Below, in pieces: positions 19,562-40,788 of a stretch of DNA of 64,000 bases (within the stretch, counting starts at the first letter, position 1; every line of letters begins with the position of its first letter). The stretch is from the NCBI GenBank assembly GCA_017472325.1, contig JAFUQM010000079.1, positions 1 to 64,000 of the forward strand, given 5' to 3'. This stretch comes from Lachnospiraceae bacterium (GTDB lineage: Bacteria > Bacillota > Clostridia > Lachnospirales > Lachnospiraceae). The notes beneath the pieces were generated by a model. The model saw only the letters and a program-made list of their open reading frames with translations. It did no database searches and was not told the DNA's origin. The position numbers were made by a program, and so were the translations under genes.

Positions 19562-21028
19562 CTATTTACACAGTTTATTTAGTTCATCTGCCACAAATTG
19601 TACTTTTGTACCAACGACTACCTGCACAGCCGTTTTTCCCGGTCTCATAATCCCAGCAACGCCGGCAGATTTTATTTTTTTCTCATCGATTTTTTCTGGG
19701 TCCTTGATTTCAAGACGCAGACGTGTAATACAGTTGTCCAAAGATACAATATTATCTTTTCCACCAAGTCCTTCCAAAATCAGTGCTGCTGTTTCCGAAA
19801 AATTTCCTCTCGTTTCTACTTCCGATATTTCCGTTTCATCCGCTTCCCTGCCTGGTGTCTTTAAATCAAATTTTACAATAGCAAAACGGAACACAACATA
19901 AAATACCACAAATGCAGCAACACCAAGAGGCAATATCATCCATGTATTTTGCGCCGCTGGTAAAGATGCTGAAAAAAGAAGGTCTGTTGCACCCGCAGAA
20001 AAGCTAAACCCTGCCCGAAAACCGACCAAAGTCGTAATCACGGTAAAAATGCCATATAAAAGTGCATATATCACATAAAGCGCTGGCGCTAAAAACATAA
20101 ATCCAAATTCAAACGGTTCGGTAACCCCACAAACAAAGGAACACAGTGCTGCAGATGCCACGAGACCAATTGCTACCTTTTTCTTTCCCTCTTTTGCGGT
20201 CTGAATCATGGCAAGTGCTGCCCCTGGAACCCCAAACATCATACATGGGAAAAATCCAGACATATACATACCGAGACTCCATGCAACATCATTGCTTGTT
20301 TCTCCTGCCCAAAAATGCGACAAATCACCAAGCCCGATGGTATCAAACCAAAAAACATTGTTTAACGCATGATGTAAACCAGTTGGAATCAGCAAACGAT
20401 TCAGAAAAACATAAATTCCAGCACCAATTGCGCCCATTCCTGCAATCCCATTACCAAGCGAAATCAGGCCTCTAAAAACAATCGGCCATACAAATAGTAA
20501 AATTACAGAGACCAGAATGGAAATAACACCAGCAACAATTGCCACGCATCTTTTTCCACTAAAAAAAGAAAGCCAATCCGGTAACGTAGCATTTCTAAAC
20601 CTATTGTAGCAATTCCCCCCAATGATACCTGAAAGAATGCCAATAAATGGATTTGCAATTTTATCAAACGCAAGCAAATTGGCTGCATCCTCTCCAATTG
20701 CAGGCATCAGGGTCGTCACAGTACTTGTTGCAAGCAGATTCGTTATCATTAACCAAGAGGCAAATGCCGCAAGTCCTGCTGTCCCGTCGTGGTCATTTGC
20801 CATACCAACCCCAACACCAATCACAAACAAAAGTGCCATATTGTCGATTAAAGCACCACCTGCTTTTACCAAAAAGAATCCTATCATATTAGTAATTCCT
20901 GTAATGTTACCTCCTTGCATTGTTGCTGGGCAAAGGGCATACCCAATCCCCATAAGAATGCCGCAAATAGGCAATACTGCCACTGGAAGCATCAATGATT
21001 TTCCGAGTTTCTGAAGATATTTCATCAT
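19562..21028 (-). CDS. nagE: PTS EIIBC component, N-acetylglucosamine/glucose family
   Basis: A 488-residue permease. The IIC domain (residues 1-380, about ten membrane spans) has RLLIPTGLHHALN, GMYMSGFFPCMMFG, GVTEPFEF (the sugar-binding GITE-like motif) and AGFSFSAG. The IIB domain has the phospho-cysteine at about residue 433 in DNCITRLRL. It imports and phosphorylates the sugar. The sequence matches NagE (GlcNAc) better than PtsG, for example in LLIPTGLH and TPGRE after the last span, but glucose cannot be excluded. EIIA is a separate gene just upstream. Confidence 0.9.
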   Translation of the reverse strand: MMKYLQKLGKSLMLPVAVLPICGILMGIGYALCPATMQGGNITGITNMIGFFLVKAGGALIDNMALLFVIGVGVGMANDHDGTAGLAAFASWLMITNLLATSTVTTLMPAIGEDAANLLAFDKIANPFIGILSGIIGGNCYNRFRNATLPDWLSFFSGKRCVAIVAGVISILVSVILLFVWPIVFRGLISLGNGIAGMGAIGAGIYVFLNRLLIPTGLHHALNNVFWFDTIGLGDLSHFWAGETSNDVAWSLGMYMSGFFPCMMFGVPGAALAMIQTAKEGKKKVAIGLVASAALCSFVCGVTEPFEFGFMFLAPALYVIYALLYGIFTVITTLVGFRAGFSFSAGATDLLFSASLPAAQNTWMILPLGVAAFVVFYVVFRFAIVKFDLKTPGREADETEISEVETRGNFSETAALILEGLGGKDNIVSLDNCITRLRLEIKDPEKIDEKKIKSAGVAGIMRPGKTAVQVVVGTKVQFVADELNKLCK

Positions 21029-25086: not shown

Positions 25087-26466
25087 TTATTCGTTTCTAA
25101 TTGCTGCTAACGGACTTAATTTCATTGCACGAAGTGCTGGGAAAAATCCTGCCAGCATGCCAATCATTACAGCAAATACAACTGACAAAATCGCCAACCA
25201 AGCTGGAATATACGACAATGTACTCATACCTAGTCCAGCAGATGCCACTATTTTATTAATAATAAAGGATAGTATCAGACTTAAAATTAGTCCAATCACA
25301 CCCCCGATAAAGCCAATATATCCGGCTTCCAGTAAAAACATCCCTTGAATATTGCGCATATCACATCCAAGTACTTTCATAATACCAATTTCCTTGGTTC
25401 TCTCATAAATAGACATCATCATTGTATTGGTAATCCCAATGGCAGCGACAAATAATGACACTGCACCAATACCACCAAGTACCGCTTGTATATAACCCAT
25501 TTGCTCCTGCTCAGATTCAATCCATTCTGCATTACTGGATGCCTGATATCCCAACATCGAGATGGCTTCCTGTACCTCCTGTACATAATCCATATCATCT
25601 ACACTAACATATATACTATTATAATACAATTCTTTATATGGCTTTCCAGAAGCGGTTGTCGGCTGTCCTGGAATTGCTTTTCCCTTAAAGGCACGCTGCA
25701 AATGTGTCTTTAAGGCTTCTACATCACAATAAGTATTCCAGCTATGCTGATTATACTCATCTATTCCACCGGCAACAACACCGGTTGCTTCTATGATATA
25801 TTTTTTAGGCGGTTTCACAGGCATATCACTATCATTCCATTGTGATTGATAATAAGCATCTGTATCAAATATGAGAAACATCGAATCATTCATTAAGTCA
25901 ATATCAGGAAGTTCGCCGGTACTCCAATACCCTTCTCCTGTTTTACTGTTACTAAAATCCTGAATTATCATATTACCATATAGCAGTTTTAAGGCATCGC
26001 CTTTCTGTGGCAGAGTTCCTTCTGCTAAATCAATATTCATCTTTTCCAAGGCTTCTATCGACATACCTTGTAAATACAAATAAGATTGATAACCACCATG
26101 CTGTGCAATCACACTAACATTTAGTACTGGCGAAACAATTTCCACATGCGGCATTGCCTTGATTGTCTCTACAAGTTCATCATCCAGACGTTTTGGCTCG
26201 TCACTTCCGCCATCCGATGATGTTGCTACCGCCACACCACCACCGTAATACACGGATTCCCCATAAGATTCATATACATTAATCGTTGTTAGTCCACCAT
26301 ATTCTTCAATCTGGTCCATTGTAGATTTGCTCAGTCCCAAGCCAAGCGACACCATAACAACAATCGACGCAGTTCCGATCACAACACCAAGCACTGTCAG
26401 AATGGTACGAACTTTTCTCTTCCACAGACTGCTACTGCTCATGCGTAATAAATCCAGAAACTTCAT
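25087..26466 (-). CDS. MacB/FtsX-family ABC transporter permease
   Basis: A 459-residue permease with the MacB layout. One membrane helix near the N-terminus (TILTVLGVVIGTASIVVMVSLG) is followed by a large extracytoplasmic domain of about 280 residues with a Gly/Ser-rich segment, then three C-terminal helices. ERTKEIGIMKVLGCDMRNI is the conserved FtsX loop. Such proteins use cytoplasmic ATP hydrolysis for mechanical work at the outer face, exporting peptides or lipoproteins or activating other proteins. The ATPase gene is 1.7 kb upstream, with a CARDB-like protein gene in between. Confidence 0.9.
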   Translation of the reverse strand: MKFLDLLRMSSSSLWKRKVRTILTVLGVVIGTASIVVMVSLGLGLSKSTMDQIEEYGGLTTINVYESYGESVYYGGGVAVATSSDGGSDEPKRLDDELVETIKAMPHVEIVSPVLNVSVIAQHGGYQSYLYLQGMSIEALEKMNIDLAEGTLPQKGDALKLLYGNMIIQDFSNSKTGEGYWSTGELPDIDLMNDSMFLIFDTDAYYQSQWNDSDMPVKPPKKYIIEATGVVAGGIDEYNQHSWNTYCDVEALKTHLQRAFKGKAIPGQPTTASGKPYKELYYNSIYVSVDDMDYVQEVQEAISMLGYQASSNAEWIESEQEQMGYIQAVLGGIGAVSLFVAAIGITNTMMMSIYERTKEIGIMKVLGCDMRNIQGMFLLEAGYIGFIGGVIGLILSLILSFIINKIVASAGLGMSTLSYIPAWLAILSVVFAVMIGMLAGFFPALRAMKLSPLAAIRNE

Positions 26467-26509: not shown

Positions 26510-28222
26510 CTATTCCTGCTCATTTTCTGTTCCGTCTGCAGAAACATCATCAGAATCCAAATCAATCAAATCCAATTCTTCTGCAAGTAAGTCTGCTTCC
26601 GCTTTTTTCTTCTTTTTCATTTTCATAATAACAATCACTGCTACCACAGCCATAACAACCAAAATTAAAAAGAAAATAATAAGTCCAGCACCTGGTCCTT
26701 TAGACTCTTCTTCCATCAGTTCCATATCCATTGGCATTTCCTCAAAAACAGGCTCCATGACATATAGGGTAATCACTTCTTCTCTTACAGATACATTACC
26801 GGATTCATCCTCATAGGAAATCAGCACTTTTACAGTACCATCATCCATAGTGGCAGCCTGACCTGTAATCATAGAATCCACATTACCTGTACCACCAGCT
26901 TCTATCTTACCCACAAAGCATTCTCCGCCGGTTACACTGTCTGATTCATATTTTACCTGCACATTATAAAGTGTTGTTTTACCTGTATTATAAATACTAA
27001 ACATAACATTGGACTGGTCGCCTACATTAATATCTGCTGGCATAACCTCTGGCGTACTTACATCAAACTTAGATTCCTGCTTAATTGGAATTGATACACT
27101 TGCTGTACTTTCAAAAGGATTAAACTGCGCATCTTCGTATTTCATATTTACGTCTAACACGTATGGCTTCTGCATCAAGTCAGCGCGTGCAGTCAGTTCT
27201 ATTTCAATATCAGTCGTTCCTCCTGGCGCAATAGAATCTACAAATATCGTATTTGAGCCAGATGTCGGTAAAAATGCTGCATATGTAGTCTGCTGGCTGT
27301 CACCTTCCTGTGCTGCCTGCATATCAAATTCGATATTAGAAACTGTCGTTCTCTTAGAGGTATTCTGTACATGCACAGTTAAAGTAAAGGTATCTCCTGC
27401 ATATACTTCTGCAGGATTTGTTTCAAACCCTGTTACAATAATTCTTGGCGTTGATGTCTTACCGCCCGCATTTGCTCCAACCTCGCCACTACCTGGCGCT
27501 CCGATTGTCTTAACATAAGTAGAAAGCGTTGTATTTTCAATCGCACCATTTCTTCGATACATTACATTAAAGTTTAGTTTATAATATCCTGTTAGAACAT
27601 CTTCTCTTGCCTTTAAATTAAAATGTACTTCTCTACGGTTGGCAATTGCTTCATCCTTTGTTGTACTACCAGGAATCTCCGTAACTCTTTCTACATATCC
27701 AGTCTTTTCAATTTCAAAAGGCCATTCATTCACATCCGTGGAAGTGACTGCTGTTACAGTCAAATCATCAATCCACGTTTCATCCATATTATAAATCGGA
27801 AGAATAATTAATACATTTTGCCCATATTGCACCGTAGGGGTTTCATATAAATCACCTACTACCAGAAATTCACTTGTAGAGGCTGGCTGGCTGGCGATAA
27901 TGGCATCCATCTGACTCTTAATTGTAGCCACATACGCACTTATCTCTTCCACCGTCATATCCACGCCGCCGATATATGCTTTTGCATTATTTAATGTGCT
28001 CTTTAACTGCTCCTCTATCTCTCTGTCCACTTCCTGTAATGTAAGCTGGAAATAATAATTGTTCAGTTCCGTCTGTCCCTTTGCAATCTCAGACTCTGAT
28101 GCATAGATGACTGTACTATTACCTGATGTCGTTGCATTTGCCATCATTGCTGGCATTGTCATACATACACATATACACGCAAGCATCATCCATTTTCTCA
28201 TCTTCCTATACATTCTACTCAT
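26510..28222 (-). CDS. Signal-peptide, membrane-anchored CARDB-like repeat protein
   Basis: A 570-residue protein with an N-terminal signal (MLACICVCMTMPAMMANA), a helical stretch to about residue 90, then beta-rich domains. Two of these resemble CARDB/NEW3 immunoglobulin-like domains: VTGFETNPAEVYAGDTFTL and PADINVGDQSNVMFSIYNTGK. One membrane helix (LIIFFLILVVMAVVAVIVIM) and a Lys-rich then acidic tail end the protein, so the bulk faces outward. Its start overlaps the ATPase stop by eight bases. The position between ATPase and permease suggests the role of a membrane-fusion or substrate-presenting subunit. That function is inference. Confidence 0.7.
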   Translation of the reverse strand: MSRMYRKMRKWMMLACICVCMTMPAMMANATTSGNSTVIYASESEIAKGQTELNNYYFQLTLQEVDREIEEQLKSTLNNAKAYIGGVDMTVEEISAYVATIKSQMDAIIASQPASTSEFLVVGDLYETPTVQYGQNVLIILPIYNMDETWIDDLTVTAVTSTDVNEWPFEIEKTGYVERVTEIPGSTTKDEAIANRREVHFNLKAREDVLTGYYKLNFNVMYRRNGAIENTTLSTYVKTIGAPGSGEVGANAGGKTSTPRIIVTGFETNPAEVYAGDTFTLTVHVQNTSKRTTVSNIEFDMQAAQEGDSQQTTYAAFLPTSGSNTIFVDSIAPGGTTDIEIELTARADLMQKPYVLDVNMKYEDAQFNPFESTASVSIPIKQESKFDVSTPEVMPADINVGDQSNVMFSIYNTGKTTLYNVQVKYESDSVTGGECFVGKIEAGGTGNVDSMITGQAATMDDGTVKVLISYEDESGNVSVREEVITLYVMEPVFEEMPMDMELMEEESKGPGAGLIIFFLILVVMAVVAVIVIMKMKKKKKAEADLLAEELDLIDLDSDDVSADGTENEQE

Positions 28223-28967
28223 TTTCTTCTCCCTCTTCTTCCTTCACGGCGTCATTCAATGCCGCTTCTCTGTTATCTTCTATCTTAATAATCTTACCGT
28301 CTTTAATATGAAAAATCCTATCCGCAAATCCTGCCAGATAATTATCATGCGTTACCATAACCAGTGTCTGGTTTTGCTCCCTTACTACCTTTTTCATTAA
28401 GTTCATAACTTCCCGCGAAGTATTAGAATCCAGATTTCCCGTTGGTTCATCCGCAAAAATAATCTCCGGATTTACTACCAATGCCCTTGCAACACCCACT
28501 CGCTGCTGCTGTCCACCAGACATCTGCGTTGGCTTATGTGTACGGTGCTTTGTAAGTCCAACTAGCTTAATTGCTTCTTCCGCCCTGGCAAGTCGTGTTT
28601 TTTTATCCATTCCCTGAAATGTTAATGGCAATGCCACATTTTCCACTGCATTCATCGTCGGCAACAGGTTAAATGACTGAAAAATAAAACCTATATGTTC
28701 CCGCCTAAACTTCACCAGCTGATTCTCCGTTTTCTTCTCCATATGTTCACCAGCAATGATAACTTCTCCTTTTGTCGGTTTTTCCAAACCTGCCAGCATA
28801 TTAAGCAGCGTGGATTTCCCAGAACCAGACGTCCCTACGATAGAGCAGAATTCTCCTTTATAAATGGTAAAATCAACTCCATTCAATGCACGCACCTTGT
28901 TCTCACCGACACGATATATTTTGTATAAGTCCTTTACCTGAATCACAGGTTTCTTATCGTTATCCAT
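28215..28967 (-). CDS. ABC transporter ATPase, MacB/LolD family
   Basis: A 250-residue ATPase with GTSGSGKSTLLNMLAGLEKP (Walker A), the Q loop in HIGFIFQSFNLLP, signature MSGGQQQRVGVARALV, Walker B IIFADEPTGNLD and the switch histidine in VMVTHDNYLA. The GNLD after Walker B and the short C-terminus are typical of the MacB/LolD/FtsE group. It heads the operon with the CARDB-like protein, the permease and the PrsA lipoprotein. The C-terminal end is acidic (EEEGEENE). Confidence 0.93.
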   Translation of the reverse strand: MDNDKKPVIQVKDLYKIYRVGENKVRALNGVDFTIYKGEFCSIVGTSGSGKSTLLNMLAGLEKPTKGEVIIAGEHMEKKTENQLVKFRREHIGFIFQSFNLLPTMNAVENVALPLTFQGMDKKTRLARAEEAIKLVGLTKHRTHKPTQMSGGQQQRVGVARALVVNPEIIFADEPTGNLDSNTSREVMNLMKKVVREQNQTLVMVTHDNYLAGFADRIFHIKDGKIIKIEDNREAALNDAVKEEEGEENE

Positions 28968-29111: not shown

Positions 29112-29156
29112 ACAAAACGGAGCTGCGCAAGTATAAATTGCACAGCCCCGTTTTGT
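29112..29156 (-). terminator. Terminator hairpin after the GH94-like genes
   Basis: Arms ACAAAACGG (29112-29120) and CCGTTTTGT (29148-29156), with further pairing inside (GCTG/CAGC, GCA/TGC) separated by single mismatches. It lies 27 bases past the end of the phosphorylase operon. Confidence 0.7.
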
Positions 29157-29182: not shown

Positions 29183-32100
29183 TTAGCGTAATGTTACTTC
29201 AATTGCAGCTACTTTTCCCTCTCTTACATCCATTGCAGCACTGCCTGTTACTTCTGCACCTGCAATTTCTGTTTCACTGCCATCCATATATTTCAGTACC
29301 ATTCCTGATACTTCATACTGACCTGGGAAATAGTCTTTCTTCGCACCTACATGGTAAGTTACTTTTGTTTCACCTAATAATACAGCTTCCACATCCATAT
29401 TTTCTTCTACAAGATATGCTGGAATTGCTGGTGCAAGTTTCATTGTCAACTCTCCATTTACATAATCAAATGGTTTCTGTCCAAACATCATTAACTGCCA
29501 CATGTTCAAGAATTCTACTGTAGAACCGCTCAGACGGGCTACAAAGCCTTTGCCGTGGTATTTCTTATTTGGATTCTTGCTGCTTGCAATAAAGGAAGAG
29601 TTTTCAAGCACACTTCTTCCATATACTTCTTTGTCTAAGAATGGAATGAGCGCTTTTTCAAAATCTGCGAAGAATTCTTCATACATTTCTGATTTTAACA
29701 GCTCTAATAAATATTTGTATTCCATATGAAGCCAGATAGATTCATTTTCCAACCATCCTGGTGTAAACGCTTTTGCACGTCCGATTTCATAGGATGCATC
29801 TGCAAGAGAAGCATTTACTTTATACATAGACAGTTTCTCGTCATAGAGGTCACTGTTCTTAATCTGATGGTATAATTCTTTCTTCTTCTCTACTGGGTTA
29901 TCCAGTTTGAGGTATCTTACAGGACCTTCTAAGAACAGAGGAATTACTGTAGGTTCAAAATGTAATGGCATAATGCCGTCTTCTGTCTTTGTATACTCTG
30001 TTACTGTGTATGAGAAATACGTTGGGCAGATACCACCAGTCATAGCACATGCTTTGTCGATACCTATACGCACTGCTTTATGCCACTGTTCTAATACACT
30101 TACAAGATACTCTGCTGAAAGCGCTTTGTTTTCACCGGAAACTCCTGCATATACTTTTGCTCTGTATGCTTCTTTCACATCATTTACTTTGTTCCAGAAG
30201 GACATCATTTCCTGTTCTTTTGTCCATACGCTTTCTTCTTCACATACAACTTTATCAAGGTTTTCGATAAACTCTGCTAATTCTGCAATAACTTCTACAT
30301 CTTTGCTATATTTTTTCAGTACTTCAATGGTGTACTCAAGATTTCTGCCAAGTTCGTATGTTTCTGACATAGAAGAACCAAATAATCCTGGAAGACCATT
30401 CAACGCATCATACCAGCCTGGTTTTCCACCTTCCATCTCAACACCCATACCATATGCATCCAGCGCTGCAAATTTTGTTGCACATAAGAGTAATAATTTT
30501 TCAAGTAATGTTACGTAGAGAATCTCTCCTTTACCATACTCTGTACGAAGTAATTTATCTGTTACTCCTTCTACTTCTTCAATTGCACGATACTGACGAA
30601 TGCCATTTGGTGTCTCCACACAACGTTTATCACGTTTGTTTACATGTGCCTGTGGTACAAAATATGTGTACTTACGGTCAAAGAACAGTTCTTCTTCTTT
30701 TTCTGGATATACAGACAGATAATTTTCAATTAAATCAAGGTTATATGTCCAATGATCTGACCAGTAACCTTCTAAGAAGTTGCCATTTACAACACCATCT
30801 GCCGCATCTAAAGCTTTTCCAAATAATACTTCTTTGGCTGCTTCATCATCTTCTAATTTATCAAGTTCTTTATATAATGCACCTGGTGTAAATGGTTTTG
30901 TCAGCACTTTCTTTAAATCTTCTTTCTGCTGCGCTGTTGCATTTGGGAAAAGACCGTCAATCTTTTCTTCTTTTACCTGATAAGTTACTTTTTCCACACC
31001 AAGTGGATTATAGCCATCTGGCTGAATTAAACTGTAGAATGTTTTTACGTTCTCATCCTTTACAAATGGCGCAAAGAATGTATCACATCTTCTGTTCTGG
31101 TTTACATCACGGAAGTTACCATTACCCTGTGAATAAAATTCCGGAAGCATACTAAAGAAGTTGTAATCTCTTTCAAGGTCACCGTGTTTTCTGGAATATA
31201 CGTAAAATACTTTGTCATCTGTCAATTGGATTGGATAACCACCACGTAATACGTTATCCATATAAGTATACTGACAGTATGCGTCAAAATCTGCATTTGC
31301 AGTTTTTGTTCTGATATGTCTGCCCAAATGATTTACAAGTTCAACTGCTTCTGCTTTTTTGCCATCAAAATAAGCTGCATCCAGCATTTTATTACCAAAA
31401 ATTTCTAAAATCTCTTTGCTATCTACCTGACCAAATAGTTCATAAATGCTCTGTTCTTCACCTGGTGCCAGTTCCATTGCTGTACCAAAGAAACTACATG
31501 GTACTAGGTTTTGTTCTACCTGTTCCATCGCATTCAGTTCTGCTACACTGTTTGTTTTAAAGTTTACTGGTCTATCTAAAGACAAATCATAAGCAAATAC
31601 AACTTCTGGGTCTGTAATAGGATGTAATCTGCTGCCGTCAGCAAGACAACCAATTGCAAAGTTACCACCTGTAACTTCTGTTACAGCCGCAGAGTCTACT
31701 GTACTGGCTCTTGCTTTGATAAATGGAATCTTATTCTGTGTATATTCTACCTGCATCCATGCTTTCATTGTCTGACCCATTGTTTTTAAACTTTCTAAGT
31801 CAATACCATATGGGATGCATGCTGGCATACCATCGAGTACTTCGATGGATGCTGCACTATCACCTGTGTTGCAGATTGTTACTTTACGTACAAGAGCACC
31901 AATACGTTCTCCTGGAAGTGTAAAATAAGATACTTTCGTTGTAAGACCTGTGTCTTTATTTACTTCTTCAATGTTCAGTCCATTCATTTCAATATGCATA
32001 CTGTGAAATACAGTTTCATCACGGAATGCTTCTGTTACATTACCATCTTTTTTTATAAATGTACGGAAACCTGTAATTTTCACATTCTGGTATGCCTGAT

Positions 32101-32290
32101 GTGCTGGATAGAATTCCATAATTGCATGGTCCTTATTCTCTACACCAAAGCTGACAACACCCTGTCCACGATTTACATAGTAGCACCAGATTGGAATCCC
32201 TTTTACTCCACTGATGCCTGGAAGAAAGCTCGCAAATGCGGATTTCTGTCCGTAATTATCCATTGTATAATTCATTGTATTATCTGCCAT
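29183..32290 (-). CDS. GH94-like glycoside phosphorylase (second of a pair)
   Basis: A 1035-residue cytoplasmic protein (no signal peptide). It starts with a beta-sandwich domain (IPIWCYYVNRGQGVVSFGVENKDH), then a linker and an (alpha/alpha)6 domain. GH94 enzymes break beta-glucosidic or related bonds with phosphate, giving sugar 1-phosphate. The catalytic Asp of GH94 lies in a DWND motif. The likely counterpart here is GKPGWYDALNGLPG (Asp628), which departs from that motif. FEGYW-type aromatic segments and a C-terminal jelly-roll piece follow. The specificity is unknown. The gene starts 11 bases after the upstream GH94-like gene, so the two products are coexpressed and may act together. Confidence 0.7.
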   Translation of the reverse strand: MADNTMNYTMDNYGQKSAFASFLPGISGVKGIPIWCYYVNRGQGVVSFGVENKDHAIMEFYPAHQAYQNVKITGFRTFIKKDGNVTEAFRDETVFHSMHIEMNGLNIEEVNKDTGLTTKVSYFTLPGERIGALVRKVTICNTGDSAASIEVLDGMPACIPYGIDLESLKTMGQTMKAWMQVEYTQNKIPFIKARASTVDSAAVTEVTGGNFAIGCLADGSRLHPITDPEVVFAYDLSLDRPVNFKTNSVAELNAMEQVEQNLVPCSFFGTAMELAPGEEQSIYELFGQVDSKEILEIFGNKMLDAAYFDGKKAEAVELVNHLGRHIRTKTANADFDAYCQYTYMDNVLRGGYPIQLTDDKVFYVYSRKHGDLERDYNFFSMLPEFYSQGNGNFRDVNQNRRCDTFFAPFVKDENVKTFYSLIQPDGYNPLGVEKVTYQVKEEKIDGLFPNATAQQKEDLKKVLTKPFTPGALYKELDKLEDDEAAKEVLFGKALDAADGVVNGNFLEGYWSDHWTYNLDLIENYLSVYPEKEEELFFDRKYTYFVPQAHVNKRDKRCVETPNGIRQYRAIEEVEGVTDKLLRTEYGKGEILYVTLLEKLLLLCATKFAALDAYGMGVEMEGGKPGWYDALNGLPGLFGSSMSETYELGRNLEYTIEVLKKYSKDVEVIAELAEFIENLDKVVCEEESVWTKEQEMMSFWNKVNDVKEAYRAKVYAGVSGENKALSAEYLVSVLEQWHKAVRIGIDKACAMTGGICPTYFSYTVTEYTKTEDGIMPLHFEPTVIPLFLEGPVRYLKLDNPVEKKKELYHQIKNSDLYDEKLSMYKVNASLADASYEIGRAKAFTPGWLENESIWLHMEYKYLLELLKSEMYEEFFADFEKALIPFLDKEVYGRSVLENSSFIASSKNPNKKYHGKGFVARLSGSTVEFLNMWQLMMFGQKPFDYVNGELTMKLAPAIPAYLVEENMDVEAVLLGETKVTYHVGAKKDYFPGQYEVSGMVLKYMDGSETEIAGAEVTGSAAMDVREGKVAAIEVTLR

Positions 32291-32301
32291 CTCTTAATCT
32301 C

Positions 32302-35016
32302 CTATACTAATTCCACAACAAGTTCATGCTGCATATTTTCTTCTAACGCTTTGATTTCTTCTAATGTTACAACCGCTTCTCCAGATGCAACGTCTTTCTT
32401 CACACCGTTCAGTGTAATACTGCCAATCTGATATTCACCACTGTCAGCTCCATTTGCATTTACATATGTAATGTGCCATCTTCTCTTACCGAAGTTTAAT
32501 GTAACTGCTGCTTTTCCTTCACTATCAAACTGCTCTTTGATTAACTGAGGTTCTAAATAAAGGGCACCTTTTTTACCTTTTACACCAAACATTTCTGTAA
32601 TCACAGTTAACATCATCCAGCTTGCTGCACCTGTCAGATAATGGTACATACCTCTTCCCCTGTCATTGAAGTATTCTGGAATACCTGGGTAAATTTTACT
32701 TGTTTCAAAATCTGCTGACTGACGATACAGTGTATTTAACGCTTTATATGCTTCTTTTACGAATCCACGTTTGTAAAGTGCGTTTGCATACATTGTTGTC
32801 ATGTGGGAGAATACTGCACCATTTTCCTTATGTCCATAAGCAAAACCAAACATTCTTCCAAGGTCAGTTTTTAATTCATGAAAATCTGTATTTAGTTTAT
32901 ATCCGCCAACCTTTTCTTCATACAGGTACGCATCTGCTGCTGTAGTCATCTTTGCAATCTGTTCTTCTGTTGCTGTTCCTGACATAATAGTAAATACCTG
33001 GCCTGTCAGCATCATTCTTACACCATTTTCTGTCTGTCCTTCTACTTTGCGTCCATTATCATCATAGTAGCTGTTGAACCATCCACCATTTTCGTCATCC
33101 ATCCACTCTGTGGCACGAATGTGTTCTTTTAACCACTGTGCCTTTTCTGTCAGGCTGTCTATCATCTCATCACAGTCAATTGCTGTTTTCTTACCAGACA
33201 CGCTACCGAAACAAGCTTCACAATACTGCGCTAACAATGCTTCTTTCTTTTCAATGCTATCATATAAATCCTGTCCTTTGGTAAACAGAATTGCCATTTC
33301 CTCTGCCACTTCAATCTGTGTCATGTTCAGTTCTTCTTTTAATGTTGCAATGATTTCTGCTAACATCTCAAGGTTTCCTGCATATGCTGCTGTAAACGCA
33401 ACACTTTCGCCTCGTTTAGAAGCCATATCCAGTGCATCGTTCCAGTCTGCACCACGCAGCTTCATATGGTTGTGTTCTCCGACATCATAAAAAGCTGTCA
33501 GATTCTGTACAAGAATATGCTCTAAAATTGTACCGGAATATTCTTTTCCTTGTGCATCCTTTAATACAGGAGTTGTTGTGTCTGTCCATGCTGTATCTGT
33601 CTTTGTGCCTCTTGCTTCCTGTTTATCTTTAAAGTAAGTGTTTTCTTTTAACAGAACAGATAAATCTCCTGTCTGGTCAAGGTAAAGTTTTGTTGTGATA
33701 AGTGGCCATAAGCCATGATCCATCCACACACGTGTAATATTATTTCTATCTGCGATAAATTCGCCCTGGCGTGTACCAATAATTGTTGCATTACTGCCGT
33801 CCATTCTGACACCGCCATAGTTATCAATTAACATCTGTCTTACACCGTCTGGATTCATAATTAACAGTGCAAGGCAGTCCTGCCATAAATCACGCCATCC
33901 TCTGCCGCCTTTACCATAATCATGGTGTGGCAGGAAAGAGCAACCATAAATTCTACGAAGCATTGGCTGGAAGTTCACCCAATACATAAAGTTATCAAAT
34001 GCTTTATCTGCTGTTTCATAAGAAACATTGATTTTATCTCTCCAATATTGCTTTGTCTGTTCAAGTGCATCCATAACAGCATTTTCTGTACTATATGCTG
34101 CAAGCATTTTATCAATGTCTGCTTTTTCATTCTCAGCACCAATGAAAACTGTATAGGAAACTGTTTCTCCTGGCTGTAATGTTACGTTTGCAAACTGTAT
34201 TGCACCAACAGCCTCATAACCCGCATACTGTTTGCCTGCTTCATCAAATGCACGTCCATTAAGAAGACTCTCTGGTCTCTCAAAACTTCCACCTTCGCCA
34301 ATAAAATCTTCTACGATTGGCATAAATCCAACTGGAGCTGCACCGTTTTGATCCATAGCACATACATAATATGTTACAAAGTTACGCTGATGTCCTCTTT
34401 CATCAAAGGAAAGGGTTGGTGTTACAAGTACACCCTTCTGTGTTGTCTCAATGGTGTGAAGAAGTGAAGTTACATGTCTATGATCTCTGATATTATCTGC
34501 ACTTCTTCCATAAACTGGAACTGCTGCAGTAGGAACAAAAGAAACTGCTGTATCTGCATTATTTTTGATACTTACATGCATCATCTCCACGTTATAGTCT
34601 GATACCGGTACAAAAGAAATAATTGTGGAACTTATTCCATATGCTTCTGATGTTCTCTCCATCTGATGCCACATAGGTCCTGCTGTTAATGTACTCTTCT
34701 CCTGCTTTGCAGTAAATTTATTTGCTTCTTCTGTTGCTGAAGCGCCTGTTGCAGACCAGCATGTTCCATCTTCCAGTGTACACCAAAAATTTCTGGTAGA
34801 CTTATTGTTATGTAAGTCTTCAGCGCTTACTGGCTGTAATATGAATTCATTCTGATTGCGTTTCAAATCTCCACCAAGTTTTGGTGTTACAGCACCTTTC
34901 ATCCCTTGTTCACCAGCTACAGGAAAATACAAATAACTGATATTTTCTGGCTGTTCCAACTTAAATGTTCCGTAATTGTCCAAAAATTCACATCTTTTAC
35001 TTACCTTGTTCTGCAT
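32302..35016 (-). CDS. GH94-like glycoside phosphorylase (first of a pair)
   Basis: A 904-residue cytoplasmic protein. The N-terminal beta-sandwich domain (to about residue 300) is followed by an (alpha/alpha)6 catalytic domain. GRGWRDLWQD (371-380) fits the phosphate/substrate site region and RGADWNDALD (521-530) carries the conserved DWND with Asp527 as presumed general acid. These motifs are those of GH94 phosphorylases (cellobiose, cellodextrin, beta-1,2- or chitobiose-active). The substrate cannot be told from sequence alone. Its ATG has AAAGGAG upstream, a leader of about 95 bases, a good sigma-A promoter and a LacI-type operator. No transporter gene is adjacent. Confidence 0.78.
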   Translation of the reverse strand: MQNKVSKRCEFLDNYGTFKLEQPENISYLYFPVAGEQGMKGAVTPKLGGDLKRNQNEFILQPVSAEDLHNNKSTRNFWCTLEDGTCWSATGASATEEANKFTAKQEKSTLTAGPMWHQMERTSEAYGISSTIISFVPVSDYNVEMMHVSIKNNADTAVSFVPTAAVPVYGRSADNIRDHRHVTSLLHTIETTQKGVLVTPTLSFDERGHQRNFVTYYVCAMDQNGAAPVGFMPIVEDFIGEGGSFERPESLLNGRAFDEAGKQYAGYEAVGAIQFANVTLQPGETVSYTVFIGAENEKADIDKMLAAYSTENAVMDALEQTKQYWRDKINVSYETADKAFDNFMYWVNFQPMLRRIYGCSFLPHHDYGKGGRGWRDLWQDCLALLIMNPDGVRQMLIDNYGGVRMDGSNATIIGTRQGEFIADRNNITRVWMDHGLWPLITTKLYLDQTGDLSVLLKENTYFKDKQEARGTKTDTAWTDTTTPVLKDAQGKEYSGTILEHILVQNLTAFYDVGEHNHMKLRGADWNDALDMASKRGESVAFTAAYAGNLEMLAEIIATLKEELNMTQIEVAEEMAILFTKGQDLYDSIEKKEALLAQYCEACFGSVSGKKTAIDCDEMIDSLTEKAQWLKEHIRATEWMDDENGGWFNSYYDDNGRKVEGQTENGVRMMLTGQVFTIMSGTATEEQIAKMTTAADAYLYEEKVGGYKLNTDFHELKTDLGRMFGFAYGHKENGAVFSHMTTMYANALYKRGFVKEAYKALNTLYRQSADFETSKIYPGIPEYFNDRGRGMYHYLTGAASWMMLTVITEMFGVKGKKGALYLEPQLIKEQFDSEGKAAVTLNFGKRRWHITYVNANGADSGEYQIGSITLNGVKKDVASGEAVVTLEEIKALEENMQHELVVELV

Positions 35017-35117: not shown

Positions 35118-35166
35118 ATTATATAAGCATTTCAAACAATATTCAATCTCAACTTAATCGTTTTCG
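35118..35166 (-). promoter_or_regulatory. Promoter of the GH94-like operon with degenerate operator
   Basis: On the minus strand TTGAAT (35146-35141), 17 bases, TATAAT (35123-35118). Directly upstream, 35153-35166 reads CTTAATCGTTTTCG on the plus strand, 11 of 14 positions identical to the core of the palindrome at 35339-35354. Confidence 0.65.
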
Positions 35167-35338: not shown

Positions 35339-35354
35339 ACTTAAACGTTTAAGT
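35339..35354. promoter_or_regulatory. LacI-type palindromic operator
   Basis: ACTTAAACGTTTAAGT is a perfect 16-base palindrome with the central CG typical of LacI/GalR-family operators. It lies between the divergent GH94-like operon and the beta-propeller gene, 187 bases (centre to centre) from the degenerate copy at the GH94 promoter. No LacI-family gene is in the window. Confidence 0.55.
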
Positions 35355-35454
35355 TGATGTTTTGTAGTACTTTTTTACTGTATGTCATAATGTCTAACAC
35401 CCAACCGCTGCACCTGAATCAACCTTTCTTTTTCTATCTTCCTCCAAATCTGGC

Positions 35455-35482
35455 TTGTAAAAAAATCAAAACATATTATAAT
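35455..35482 (+). promoter_or_regulatory. Sigma-A promoter of the anchored beta-propeller gene
   Basis: TTGTAA (35455-35460), 16 bases, TATAAT (35477-35482). The predicted start falls at the beginning of the 44-base repeat, so the repeat forms the 5' end of the transcript. Confidence 0.65.
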
Positions 35483-35484
35483 AA

Positions 35485-35528
35485 AACCAAACGCCGGCAC
35501 GTTTCACGCGCCGTCTTATTGAACCAAA
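35485..35528. repeat. 44-base dispersed repeat, second copy
   Basis: Matches 21594-21637 with two mismatches. It is located in the 5' leader of the gene at 35573. A further partial echo, GCCGTCTGAATCAAC, follows at 35545-35559. Confidence 0.75.
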
Positions 35529-35572
35529 TATCGGCTTATGAAAAGCCGTCTGAATCAACAAGGAGAACAATT

Positions 35573-36616
35573 ATGGCAACAACATCTGGAAGTCGTCCAA
35601 AAACGGCTCTTATCTTCTTTTTTCTTTTTGCTTTGATTGCATTACTCGTGATATGTATTATATTACAAGGAAAAATCGAGCAAAATCCACCCGGTACCAT
35701 TGGTAATACGGCCGGTAATCTTAATAACAAAGGACTCTTTTGTGAACAAAACGGTGTCGTATATTTTGCAAACGCCTATGATAATGGCACTTTGTATTCT
35801 ATGAATGCAGATGAAACCAATATCCAAAAGCTTTCTGATGCACAGGCACAATCCATCAATGCTGCTGGAGATTATCTTTATTATTATCAAACAGATATTG
35901 CTGGAGATAAAGATTTGGGATTTATCGCTCATGCTCTTGGCTTATATCGTTCTAAGACAAACGGCAAAGATGCTTTATGCCTTAAAAGAGATCCATGTGC
36001 TACTGTTGTCCTCGTAGATAATACACTATATTATCAGCATTTTGACAATCAGGGAGCCGGTATGACACTCTACCAGATGGATACGGATAAGAAAAATGAC
36101 AAACAAGTACTCAAGGAAGCTGCCAATCCTGCCTCTATCCAGGATGGCTGTATCTATTATAATGGTACTACAGACAACCATCATCTCTATCAATATAATA
36201 CCTATACGGGGACTTCAAGCATTATCTGGAACGGTAATCTATGGAATCCCGTTGTCATTGGTAATTATGTGTATTACATGGACGTATCAGACAATTACAA
36301 ACTTTGCAGACGTCAGTTAGATGCCGAAGGCACCGAACTCCTGACTACAGACAGGGTCGATATGTTCAATATCTATGGAGACTACATTTATTATCAGAAA
36401 AGTTCTGCGACAGAGCCTGCATTAAAAAGAATGCGTCTAGACGGCAGCGAAAACGAAATCGTTGCAGAAGGAGTTTACCAAAATATTAATATTACTTCAT
36501 CTTATGTGTATTTTAATGCATACGACGCACCAACACCAGTATATAAAACCCCAGTATATGGTCCCGTGAATGTTACTGAATTTACTGCTGCAGCAGTTGC
36601 CGTATCAACAAAATAA
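35573..36616 (+). CDS. Membrane-anchored DUF5050-like beta-propeller protein
   Basis: A 347-residue protein. After a short cytoplasmic start (MATTSGSRPKT), a single hydrophobic helix (residues about 12-35) acts as signal anchor, so the rest is outside. The remainder is built from repeats of about 40 residues with YF or YYYQ strands and N-G-D turns (for example GVVYFANAYDNGTLYSMNAD and DYLYYYQTDI), as in DUF5050/YWTD-like propellers. A role in sensing or binding at the cell surface is possible, but not shown. The frame is open from 35354, but the ATG at 35573 has AAGGAGA at the right distance and the promoter lies downstream of 35354. Confidence 0.72.
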   Translation: MATTSGSRPKTALIFFFLFALIALLVICIILQGKIEQNPPGTIGNTAGNLNNKGLFCEQNGVVYFANAYDNGTLYSMNADETNIQKLSDAQAQSINAAGDYLYYYQTDIAGDKDLGFIAHALGLYRSKTNGKDALCLKRDPCATVVLVDNTLYYQHFDNQGAGMTLYQMDTDKKNDKQVLKEAANPASIQDGCIYYNGTTDNHHLYQYNTYTGTSSIIWNGNLWNPVVIGNYVYYMDVSDNYKLCRRQLDAEGTELLTTDRVDMFNIYGDYIYYQKSSATEPALKRMRLDGSENEIVAEGVYQNINITSSYVYFNAYDAPTPVYKTPVYGPVNVTEFTAAAVAVSTK

Positions 36617-36644: not shown

Positions 36645-36694
36645 ATGAATTACAGGAGCTGGCACTTAATTGCGAGACAGCTCCTGTAATTCAT
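36645..36694 (-). terminator. Terminator overlapping the end of folBK
   Basis: A perfect 17-bp stem (arms 36645-36661 and 36678-36694). The right arm is the coding sequence for the last residues of FolBK (NELQEL), and the stop codon TAA lies in the loop. On the minus strand it is followed by TTTTTATATAT. It may also stop the convergent gene at 36616. Confidence 0.85.
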
Positions 36695-37493
36695 TTAACA
36701 TCTGATGCACTGTTTTCCCTAATACTGCATGGCGCTTATATGGCGCAATGTCATTCATTGGAATCAGCACAAATTCTCGGTTATGCATATCTGCGTGTGG
36801 AATTGTCAATGTTTCACTATCATATACAAGATTATCATAGAAAATAATATCCAAATCCAATGTACGCGGTCCCCAATGAATAAGACGTTCTCTTCCTGCC
36901 TGTTGCTCTATTTCATGCAAAAAATCAAGCAATTCCTCTGGCAAAAGCAGTGTTCTTATTTCCATAGCTCCATTTAGGAAATCCTCCTGTTCCACACCAC
37001 CATATGGCTTGGTCACAAGCAACTTAGATACGCTTATCACATTTAATAACGGATGCTTTTTAATTTTTTCTATAGCCTGCTCTATATATTGCTGTTTATC
37101 TCCCATATTAGAACCGATTGCTATATATGCTGTATGCCACGCTCTTTCTATTTCTACAGATACAGACGCAAACGGTAATCCAATCGGAGCAGAAGGTTTC
37201 CGTATTTCAAGCTGTAACACTTCTATTAACGGAAATTGCAGCAATACTGCCTCAGCCATTCTTTCTGCAACAGTTTCAATCAATTGAAATGTATGCTGCT
37301 TCATAAAATCGTTCATAAAATGGCAAACTTCTCCATAATGTACTGAGAGCGTAAGATTATCTGATTTGCCAGCCTCTCGTGTCTGTAAATATAACGTTGC
37401 ATTAATATAGAAGTTTTGCCCGTTCTCATTTTCTTCCGGATAGACTCCATGATATGCAAATACTTCCAAATCTTCTATTTTGATCTTGTCCAT
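36666..37493 (-). CDS. folBK: Bifunctional dihydroneopterin aldolase/HPPK
   Basis: A 275-residue fusion of two consecutive folate enzymes. Residues 1-117 are FolB (DLEVFAYHGVYPEENENGQNF, then LIETVAERMAEAVL), which cleaves dihydroneopterin to 6-hydroxymethyl-dihydropterin. Residues about 118-275 are FolK (AYIAIGSNMGDKQQYIEQAI, then GPRTLDLDIIFYDN and IPHADMHNREFVL), which adds pyrophosphate from ATP. It is the last gene of the folate operon. Its final codons form one arm of the terminator. Confidence 0.95.
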   Translation of the reverse strand: MDKIKIEDLEVFAYHGVYPEENENGQNFYINATLYLQTREAGKSDNLTLSVHYGEVCHFMNDFMKQHTFQLIETVAERMAEAVLLQFPLIEVLQLEIRKPSAPIGLPFASVSVEIERAWHTAYIAIGSNMGDKQQYIEQAIEKIKKHPLLNVISVSKLLVTKPYGGVEQEDFLNGAMEIRTLLLPEELLDFLHEIEQQAGRERLIHWGPRTLDLDIIFYDNLVYDSETLTIPHADMHNREFVLIPMNDIAPYKRHAVLGKTVHQMLNELQELSRN

Positions 37494-37516
37494 TTCATAT
37501 CCCTTCCTACCTTATC

Positions 37517-38326
37517 TCACTGACTGTTTCGAATCGCTTCCGTCATACGGATGATGCGCATATTTTCCTTCACATCATGTACTCTGACAAAAGTACAGCC
37601 TTTTAAAACTGCCATTGTTGTTGTAGCCAGCGTCCCTTCCAGACGCTCTTCTACAGGCAAATCCAATGTCAATCCGATCACCGATTTCCTTGATGTTCCG
37701 AGCAATATCGGATACCCAAACATATGCAGGGAATCTATGTGATTTATCATCAATAGATTTTGCTCGTACGTTTTAGCAAAGCCAATTCCTGGATCTAAAA
37801 TTATATTATGTCCTGCAATCCCAGCTCTTGCTGCAATCTGAATCGTCTCTGTCATATCTCCAGCCATATCCTGTAGAAAATCCTTATAAACTGCTTCTTT
37901 TCTATTATGCATCAGACAACATGCCACATCATGCTCTGCAATCACATTTGCCATATCCGCATCATACTTTAATCCCCAGATATCGTTAATCATATCTGCA
38001 CCAGCTTTAATCCCTGCTAGTGCCACCTTACTCTTATATGTATCTAAAGAAACCGGTATATCAAATCTTGCCTTTACCGCCTCAATGACTGGAGCAATTC
38101 TTTCCATTTCTTCTGACTCAGACAGCATAGTGTACCCTGGTCTTGTAGATTCACCACCAATATCTATGATGGATGCACCTTCTTCTATCATTTGCTCGGT
38201 ACGTTTTAATGCCACATCTAATTCCTTATATTTTCCTCCATCAGAAAAGGAATCCGGCGTTATATTCAGGATTCCCATACAATAGGTTCTATTTACTGTA
38301 TCAAATACACGATTTCCAATCCTCAT
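37517..38326 (-). CDS. folP: Dihydropteroate synthase
   Basis: A 269-residue TIM-barrel enzyme that joins p-aminobenzoate to hydroxymethyl-dihydropterin diphosphate; it is the sulfonamide target. The motifs are MGILNITPDSFSDGGKY, IDIGGESTRPGY, ILDPGIGFAKT and LLGTSRKS. An ATG at 38338 is in frame, but GGAG (which overlaps it) is correctly placed for the ATG at 38326. It starts 13 bases from the stop of the HD gene. Confidence 0.95.
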   Translation of the reverse strand: MRIGNRVFDTVNRTYCMGILNITPDSFSDGGKYKELDVALKRTEQMIEEGASIIDIGGESTRPGYTMLSESEEMERIAPVIEAVKARFDIPVSLDTYKSKVALAGIKAGADMINDIWGLKYDADMANVIAEHDVACCLMHNRKEAVYKDFLQDMAGDMTETIQIAARAGIAGHNIILDPGIGFAKTYEQNLLMINHIDSLHMFGYPILLGTSRKSVIGLTLDLPVEERLEGTLATTTMAVLKGCTFVRVHDVKENMRIIRMTEAIRNSQ

Positions 38327-38339
38327 CACAAACTCCATT

Positions 38340-38843
38340 CTAATAGCGAAGCATCAGATTTTTCTTGTTCTGTTTCCAGTCACATTCTGCTTCTGCCGCA
38401 CATGCAAAACAACTCCGGCTCATCTTATCCGCCCTGTACAAAAGGCCTTCCAGATTATCCTTATCAACCACTTTTGGATTACGATGCTCCACTATTGCTG
38501 CAGCAATCTCTTCTATTTCTGCATTGCTAAACCCACATTCACGCAAAATGACCGTCGCAATTGGCGCACTTGCCTGCTCATGTGGTGTTCCATTGGCGTA
38601 CTGCTCATATCTGCCAATGTCATGCAACAATGCCGCTGCATAAATCATCTCATATTCTACCCCATATTGCTCTTGCAAATTAAGAATCATTGCAATTCGT
38701 GCTACATCCAGAAAATGTACCATATTATGTCTGCAAAACCTTCTATCAACTTCTGCTTCCTCTATTTTATGATAATTTTCCAAAAATAAATCATGATTTA
38801 ATATTTCGTTTATTCGCTTGTTGTTTTCACTGAATTTCTTCAT
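38340..38843 (-). CDS. HD-domain hydrolase in the folate operon
   Basis: A 167-residue protein with a full HD metal site: CRHNMVHFLDVARIA (first His), ALLHDIGRYEQ (His-Asp) and AIVEHRNPK (late His), plus a helix with DKMSRSCFAC. HD enzymes hydrolyse phosphate esters and (d)NTP-like molecules. The gene sits between folE and folP. The pathway step between those two enzymes, removal of diphosphate from dihydroneopterin triphosphate, has no recognised gene here (no Nudix gene), so this protein is a candidate for it. The biochemical role is inference. Confidence 0.8.
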   Translation of the reverse strand: MKKFSENNKRINEILNHDLFLENYHKIEEAEVDRRFCRHNMVHFLDVARIAMILNLQEQYGVEYEMIYAAALLHDIGRYEQYANGTPHEQASAPIATVILRECGFSNAEIEEIAAAIVEHRNPKVVDKDNLEGLLYRADKMSRSCFACAAEAECDWKQNKKNLMLRY

Positions 38844-38927
38844 CCTATTACTACACTTTTCTATTAGAATCTCGCCATCTAAATTATCTATATCTTAAAT
38901 CACATGGCTTCTTATTGACGATAGCTT

Positions 38928-39485
38928 TTACTTTCTTATCATATTAAAAAATGTATTCTGCAATTTCTCTGATTCCTGAAAGCTACCTCTTGTTACCACT
39001 GTTACAGTACTGCTTCCTGGCTTTTTCACACCACGCATCGTCATGCACATATGCTCTGCTTCTACCATAACCATAGCACCTTGCGGTTCTAGATGTTCCA
39101 TGATGGCATCTGCTATCTGTGCTGTCATCTGTTCCTGCAACTGTGGACGACGTGCAAATACCTCCACAGTTCTTGCCAGCTTACTCAGTCCAACCACTTT
39201 ACCATTCGGAATATATGCTACATGAGCTTTTCCATAAAATGGCATCAAATGATGCTCACATGTAGAATAAAATACGATATCCTTTTCTACTACCATTTCA
39301 TTATTCTCTACATGAAACGTTTTAGATAATGGCACAGCTGCATCTTCATCCATACCTGCAAAGATTTCCGCATACATTCTGCCAATACGTGCCGGTGTTT
39401 CCACAAGCCCTTCTCTTGTAACATCTTCACCGATTCCTTCCAACAATAACTTTACCGCTTCTTCAATCTTCTTTTGATCTACCAT
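38928..39485 (-). CDS. folE: GTP cyclohydrolase I
   Basis: A 185-residue FolE that turns GTP into 7,8-dihydroneopterin triphosphate, the first step of folate synthesis. The signatures are [20 protein letters not shown], the zinc-site [18 protein letters not shown] and [12 protein letters not shown]. The start has AGGAGA upstream and overlaps the end of folC by 23 bases. The downstream gene is the HD-domain protein. Confidence 0.96.
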
Positions 39486-40788
39486 GCGAATCTCTCCTGA
39501 TTTTATGTTTATTTTTTACAATTTCTGTCAAAGCTCCAAGATACGAAAGAGAGCCAAATGCAATAATGACAGTATCCTTTTTCGCTAACAGATAACTGAT
39601 TTCTACTGCTTCTTCCAGACTATCCGCCACAGTGACACATGAATGATATTTTTGTACTTCCTGTGCCAGTTCATACGCCTGCAACGCTCTGGGATTATGC
39701 GGAGGTGTGACTGTGATAATATGTTCTGCCGCACGATGCGTTGCTTCTATCATCTTAACATACTCCTTATCCCTTAACACTCCCATTATATAAATAATTC
39801 TCTTGTTTGTAAAATAAAACTGTATTGATTCTGCCAGCTTTTTTGCTGCATCTTCATTATGTGCCCCATCTATCACAAATAGAGGTTTTTGTGCAATCAC
39901 ACTAAATCTTCCATGCCACTGTGTCTGCTCCAGACCTGTAAGCATATCTTTCGTTGAAACCGGATAGCCTGCTTTCGCAAGCACTTCTAATGTCTCAATA
40001 GCCAGAATACAATTTGCAATCTGGTACTTTCCCGCCATGTGTATTACTATATTTTTCCAGGTTTTATAAGAAAAACATTGTTTGTTAATTCCATATTTAA
40101 CTTTCTCTATTTTAGTAAAGTCCGCCACCCTCAATTCACAGTTAAATGCCTCACATTTCTGCTCTATGACATGCATTACCTCTGCTTCCTGTTTTGCAGT
40201 TATTACATAACAATTGTTTTTTATAATTCCGACCTTGTTTTCAGCAATTTTATCCAATGTATCACCTAAAAATGCCATATGATCCATACTAATGGAGGCA
40301 ATAACGGCTGCCAACGTCGTTGTAATAATATTGGTTGCATCTAATGTACCACCAAGTCCAGTTTCCAGTACAACAATATCACATTGCTTCTCTTTGAAAT
40401 ATAGAAACCCCAATGCGGTTTCTACTTCAAAGATTGTCGGATGCATCAAGCCCTCCGCCTGCATGCTGTCTGCAGCTTGTTTGATGCGTTCCATATAAGC
40501 ACACACATCCTTTTTCGTAATCATTCTGCCATTAATCTGAAATCGTTCCCTATAATCAGAAATTGTTGGAGAAATATATCTGCCAGTTTTATAGCCTGCA
40601 TGTGCCAACACTGTTGAAATATAAGCAAGTGTCGAGCCTTTCCCATTTGTACCAGCAATATGAACAAACTTCAATGCATTCTGCGGATTATCAAGACGTG
40701 CCAGCAATTCCCGGATATTATCCAACCCAGGAACACTCCCATATTGACTTATGTTCTCTATATAATTCATCATTTCCTGATAATTCAT
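39463..40788 (-). CDS. folC: Folylpolyglutamate/dihydrofolate synthase
   Basis: A 441-residue Mur-ligase-like enzyme that adds glutamate to dihydropteroate and to folates. The P-loop is in [17 protein letters not shown] (residues about 41-57). [29 protein letters not shown] and the C-terminal [13 protein letters not shown] also fit FolC. It is the first gene of the folate operon and overlaps folE. A divergent small membrane protein gene starts about 100 bases away. Confidence 0.95.

Follow-up and report, generated by a model that had tools for sequence, protein, structure and literature searches.

The two adjacent genes at positions 29183-35016 of the window, the whole stretch of 64,000 nucleotides, very probably form a bicistronic unit for cytoplasmic phosphorolysis of β-1,3-gluco-oligosaccharides in a gut Lachnospiraceae-type bacterium. 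In the proposed pathway, oligosaccharides are probably provided outside the cell by a GH16 protein whose gene lies away from the pair, and laminari-oligosaccharides would be imported. The GH161 enzyme would then remove glucose units from them as α-glucose-1-phosphate, down to laminaribiose, by analogy with the GH161 phosphorylase PapP, and the GH94 enzyme would convert the remaining laminaribiose to α-glucose-1-phosphate and glucose. Both enzymes are expected to invert, through direct attack by phosphate with one Asp (D628 and D527, respectively) acting as general acid. Family placement, catalytic-residue conservation, the conserved tandem and its co-inheritance are results of the analysis, whereas substrates, direction, order of action, cellular location and the origin of the oligosaccharides are predictions. 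In place of the "two phosphorylases of unknown specificity" of the preliminary description, this gives a specific, testable pathway.

Both open reading frames are on the minus strand: the first gene in reading direction (32302..35016) encodes 904 aa and the second (29183..32290) 1035 aa, with a spacer of 11 bases between them (32291..32301). This confirms the two large, closely adjacent genes described earlier, as well as the two motifs then quoted, in which Asp527 and Asp628 were found at exactly these residues. Just 3′ of the GH161 stop codon there is a likely intrinsic terminator (29112..29156, minus strand), with a stem of 19 pairs and a T-rich tail; the region holds 7 terminator-like sites against a mean of 3.5 in shuffles, and the next longest stem has 8 pairs. 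A possible sigma-70-type promoter (TTGAAT-17-TATAAT, 35118..35146, minus strand; 10/12 consensus match) stands about 100 bases 5′ of the ATG of the 904-aa gene, and carries little weight, as the region holds such sites no more often (18) than shuffles do (mean 21.7). Since the terminator follows the GH161 stop codon and the promoter-like site precedes the first ATG, the two genes may make up a bicistronic unit of their own.

The 904-aa protein is a GH94 enzyme of the laminaribiose phosphorylase (LBP) type, predicted to catalyse phosphorolysis of laminaribiose to glucose-1-phosphate and glucose. Its GH94 catalytic and supersandwich domains both score over the curated Pfam cut-offs (PF17167, 119.9 bits, cut-off 27; PF06165, 45.7 bits, cut-off 23), and nothing relevant was found among the NCBIfam models. 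The search of solved structures gave a match of 1052.9 bits to the laminaribiose phosphorylase 6ggy over residues 9-903, in an alignment that, as printed, contains no long indel. The next-best solved relatives were a cyclic β-1,2-glucan synthase (93.5 bits) and cellobiose phosphorylase (at most 83.8 bits), so the protein is much nearer to LBP than to the other GH94 specificities with solved structures. The 6ggy enzyme, PsLBP (also 6gh2, filed under the same sequence as 6ggy, and 6gh3), shares the WND and RD motifs with the 904-aa protein and comes from another organism, a Paenibacillus. In the 904-aa protein the active-site motifs are WND at 525-527, with D527 (contained in KLRGADWNDALD) as the predicted general acid, R375-D376, and EN-x5-HM at 731-739. 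Among 67 LBP matches, some of them near-copies, every one of the 65 rows spanning this position has D527, and D376 is present in 58/58 and H738 in 67/67.

The 1035-aa protein is assigned to GH161 by its sequence matches. A phmmer search gave 1409 bits both to 9qqk/9sr2, annotated as gh161 phosphorylase, GH161A, and to 9h8v, with matches that run from residue 6 or 7 to 1032 (6-1032 for 9qqk_A); these solved GH161 phosphorylases carry the same GKPGWYDALNG motif. No Pfam family was matched at E 0.001, hence no GH94 domain over cut-off, and the score against the NCBIfam GH149 equivalog (112.4 bits) is far below its cut-off of 1150. These end-to-end matches, together with the lack of a Pfam family and the sub-cut-off GH149 score, identify the protein as a GH161 member. 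GH94 as its family is ruled out by the missing Pfam GH94 match and the full-length GH161 match, and GH149 by the low equivalog score. GH161 belongs to clan GH-Q, where GH94 and GH149 are its sister families (PMC6484121), and the GH149 β-1,3-glucan phosphorylase (Pro_7066, EgP1), of the same clan, shows a weak profile match to residues 507-818. Since neither Pfam nor, above cut-off, NCBIfam has a model that covers the 1035-aa protein, such proteins easily go unnamed or are called cellobiose phosphorylase, the name under which 9h8v was deposited. The earlier view of both proteins as GH94-like holds for the 904-aa protein, with its Pfam GH94 domains, and fails for the 1035-aa protein; the suspected divergence of the latter is borne out.

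The active-site motifs of the 1035-aa protein are WYD at 626-628, with D628 (contained in GGKPGWYDALNG) as the predicted general acid, R394-D395, and EN-x5-HM at 848-856. D628, R394, D395 and H855 are invariant in 98 of 98 GH161 relatives (loci L003-L100, some of them near-copies). Published GH94 and GH149 active sites have in common the catalytic Asp in a WND loop, the RD motif and a His at the phosphate site (PMC6771811), and the conserved residues of both proteins fit these motifs; from the shared EN-x5-HM pattern, H738 (LBP) and H855 (GH161) are the putative phosphate-site His residues. The preliminary description was right to see two different, related phosphorylases, and its choice of catalytic Asp was sound. 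Its statement that both specificities are open is not upheld, because solved-structure and family matches place the two proteins with characterised groups, the GH94 laminaribiose phosphorylases and the GH161 β-1,3-glucan phosphorylases, the very outcome that it had named as refuting.

The pair is of an already described type. GH161 was founded by Kuhaudomlarp et al. in 2019 (PMC6484121), who reported tandems of adjacent GH94 and GH161 genes, as in the window, with enzymes likely to act sequentially on one oligosaccharide; action in sequence, one of the two possibilities raised earlier for the present pair, is the best reading and was already published there. According to the same source, PapP requires an acceptor with a degree of polymerization (DP) of 2 or more, whereas GH149 accepts DP 1 or more; PapP therefore degrades only to the disaccharide. 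A 2022 review (PMC8950772) gives no GH161 structure as known at that time, and in the open-access literature searched we found no paper on the solved structures 9qqk, 9sr2 and 9h8v. A β-1,4-specific GH94 enzyme of Blautia producta cuts mixed-linkage oligosaccharides and yields laminaribiose (PMC10318527), so cereal glucans may also supply laminaribiose.

We scanned named genomes for GH161 and obtained 383 relatives, from which the best 80, all close to the query, were kept. LBP stands directly upstream of GH161 (gap below 400 bases) in 58 of these best 80 of 383 loci, which supports a joint role in phosphorolysis; in the rest it is near in 1, missing despite at least 2.5 kb of upstream sequence in 11, and unscored in 10 (the locus table behind these counts also includes the window). 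The culturable Roseburia inulinivorans (L018) is one of the relatives that carry the tandem. Over 55 tandem pairs, the window among them, the GH161 and LBP distances correlate with r = 0.90, a value reached in 0 of 2000 permutations, which is also in favour of the pathway and is partly expected, because genome relatedness by itself raises such a figure. In quick trees, built without bootstrap, the window proteins occupy matching places, each as the first branch of a supported clade (18 rows in the GH161 tree and 14 in the LBP tree). In the LBP tree, where the "alone" and "near" labels of 20 loci were assigned from contig positions, 15 of the 18 LBPs whose label sets them apart from GH161 fall elsewhere and 3 fall in the 29-row group that contains the window. 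The tandem label requires 7 changes on the GH161 tree.

Tight gene coupling and co-inheritance would also fit an obligate hetero-oligomer of the 904-aa and 1035-aa proteins, the other arrangement that had been considered. We regard it as very unlikely, given that GH161 occurs without LBP in the 11 loci above, and that the converse is seen in 13 of 200 same-family genomes (the own genome included), which have an LBP-type match above 900 bits and no match to the GH161 query; moreover, the related GH149 enzyme Pro_7066 is reported as a homodimer (PMC6771811). In that set of 200, the GH161 query is matched in 21 genomes at E 0.001, two of them (G047 and G162) at just 18 bits, and the LBP query in 93, many via other GH94 enzymes. 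GH161 matches were found in 11 of the 391 genomes of the class-level set, those in G290 and G344 being weak.

The flanking genes include no sugar importer or glycoside hydrolase adjoining the pair, in agreement with the preliminary description, which had seen no transporter or other sugar gene there. The downstream side holds an ABC ATPase (28215-28967) and a CARDB protein (26510-28222), both named by Pfam, and a permease whose translation reads as MacB/FtsX type (25087-26466). Directly upstream is a divergently transcribed DUF5050 protein (35354-36616; Pfam, 335 bits); none of the clusters flanking the best 80 of 383 loci contains a relative of it. Pfam was run on 7 window proteins, and the only sugar transporter among them is a PTS IIBC protein (19562-21028), whose best NCBIfam model is of the GlcNAc type (549.6 bits, cut-off 553.2). 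The genes at 36666-40788 read, from their translations, as folate synthesis, with an HD-domain-like protein of 167 aa at 38340-38843.

Unlike most relatives, the pair was not seen to have an importer, β-glucosidase or glucanase gene next to it, which counts against the proposed pathway. In most of the GH161 loci analysed in PMC6484121 ABC transporters are present, whereas none was seen beside the window pair. In our related loci, the genes that frequently follow GH161 are those for a solute-binding protein, two ABC permeases, a second solute-binding protein, a histidine kinase and an AraC-type response regulator (clusters named by Pfam on one or two representatives each). Genes of a sugar-ABC type for a solute-binding protein or a permease are found in 58 of the best 80 of 383 loci, and 20 of these 80 have a GH30 enzyme, both in support of oligosaccharide degradation; the sugar-ABC clusters were not found in 16 loci with 6 kb or more of sequence downstream, and 6 were unscored. 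The window has no such clusters beside GH161, and of the other 17 clade members 8 have the ABC genes, 8 lack them and 1 is unscored. Since these labels come from clustering the sequences of ORFs that were called greedily, a cassette of divergent sequence would go unnoticed. At two loci (L004 and L065) the response regulator alone is kept from the cassette. The genomes of L003 and L005 each have a second GH161, and that of L003 (L030) adjoins the cassette, without LBP.

An 18-row profile of the cassette solute-binding protein was run against 12 genomes (E 1e-20), the genus level being represented by the own genome alone. In the own genome, whose assembly is 61.9% complete and contains one GH161, the cassette protein was not found, which also weighs against the pathway, although absences here mean little because of this incompleteness. 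The best match, of 90 bits, comes from a gene beside two ABC permease genes, a LacI regulator and, divergent from these, a gene for a cellobiose phosphorylase (1216 bits to 3qde); with these neighbours it was rejected as an ortholog of the cassette protein. The L004 genome has a solute-binding protein of 852 bits on the same contig as the tandem, about 80 kb away. Matches of 545 to 586 bits were obtained in the L003, L005 and L007 genomes, of 147 to 151 bits in L010, L011 and L012, and of 120 bits, on a fragment, in L065; L006 gave none at this threshold, and the two genomes with the cassette present (L013 and L014) gave 780 and 806 bits. With 8 of 17 clade members lacking the ABC genes, 7 changes required for the ABC label on the GH161 tree, and the L004 protein at about 80 kb, the missing importer appears to reflect a rearrangement or a loss in a system that is already described. 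Detail is added to this published system by the distribution and co-inheritance of the tandem and by the lack of an importer beside it in several lineages.

The lack of an importer beside the pair would also suit the synthetic direction, in which LBP makes a laminaribiose primer from glucose-1-phosphate and glucose and GH161 extends it to an intracellular β-1,3-glucan reserve. Phosphorylases are reversible, LBP could provide the acceptor of at least DP 2 that GH161 needs, and the own genome has no glycogen-synthase match over cut-off (best 20.4 bits, cut-off 22.7) in its 61.9%-complete assembly. Synthesis is nevertheless highly improbable in our view, since a glycogen-synthase-type match over cut-off is present in 10 of 10 relatives searched, sugar-import genes accompany 58 of the best 80 of 383 related loci, and a GH16 match occurs in the own genome and in 9 of these 10 relatives. 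The own GH16 protein, which supports the degradative pathway, has 786 aa and is encoded away from the pair (G000:C28; L121:6999-9359). It contains three CBM_4_9 stretches and, by eye, a lipobox-like start, and its best solved relatives are the β-1,3-glucanase 2hyk and the laminarinase 3azx (184 bits). Judging by their translations, the genes on either side of it are pyrF and one for an HD-GYP sensor protein.

The Tyr that replaces Asn in the catalytic loop of the 1035-aa protein is a further point against the pathway, the specificity of WYD-type enzymes being predicted from family membership. Across 106 GH161 loci (L003-L100, L123-L128, L131 and L132) the motif is WYD in 94, WND in 9 and WCD in 3. 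In a tree of 106 rows (105 loci, the short L132 having been dropped, plus the window; 103 rows differ), the WYD type occupies one side of a branch with support 100, comprising 95 rows, and one change is required. This is what the tree requires and no proven origin, because the program warned of long branches meeting (L092/L123, L091/L094 and L093/L095), the WND group has a support of just 52 and the root is not known. A WYD-type GH161 with shifted specificity, for mixed-linkage or branched β-glucan or for another acceptor length, with LBP clearing its laminaribiose product, would be consistent with this single change beside the general acid and with the GH30 enzymes at 20 of the best 80 of 383 loci, which hint at β-1,6-linked branches (GH30 activity taken from PMC6484121). 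We consider such a shift unlikely, since the tandem is not confined to the WYD type: one WND-type GH161 (L126) has LBP directly upstream, and at L125 LBP lies about 630 bases upstream. As LBP stands beside both types, the shared product should still be β-1,3-linked. It is similarly doubtful, if conceivable, that the 1035-aa protein represents a GH161 subfamily in which Asn changed to Tyr once, perhaps with altered acceptor or linkage specificity, and that in this lineage the pair, parted from the importer beside it in most relatives, may use oligosaccharides brought in by another transporter.

Two minor observations concern LBP in relatives. In Butyrivibrio fibrisolvens 16/4 (L079:7300-9944) the LBP match is split in two, each piece in its own reading frame, which suggests a frameshift in the draft genome. 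Elsewhere (G047:C17:1906-5344 and G161:C57:9993-15039) another GH94-type enzyme, not GH161, stands beside LBP, suggesting that other phosphorylase pairings exist in some relatives.
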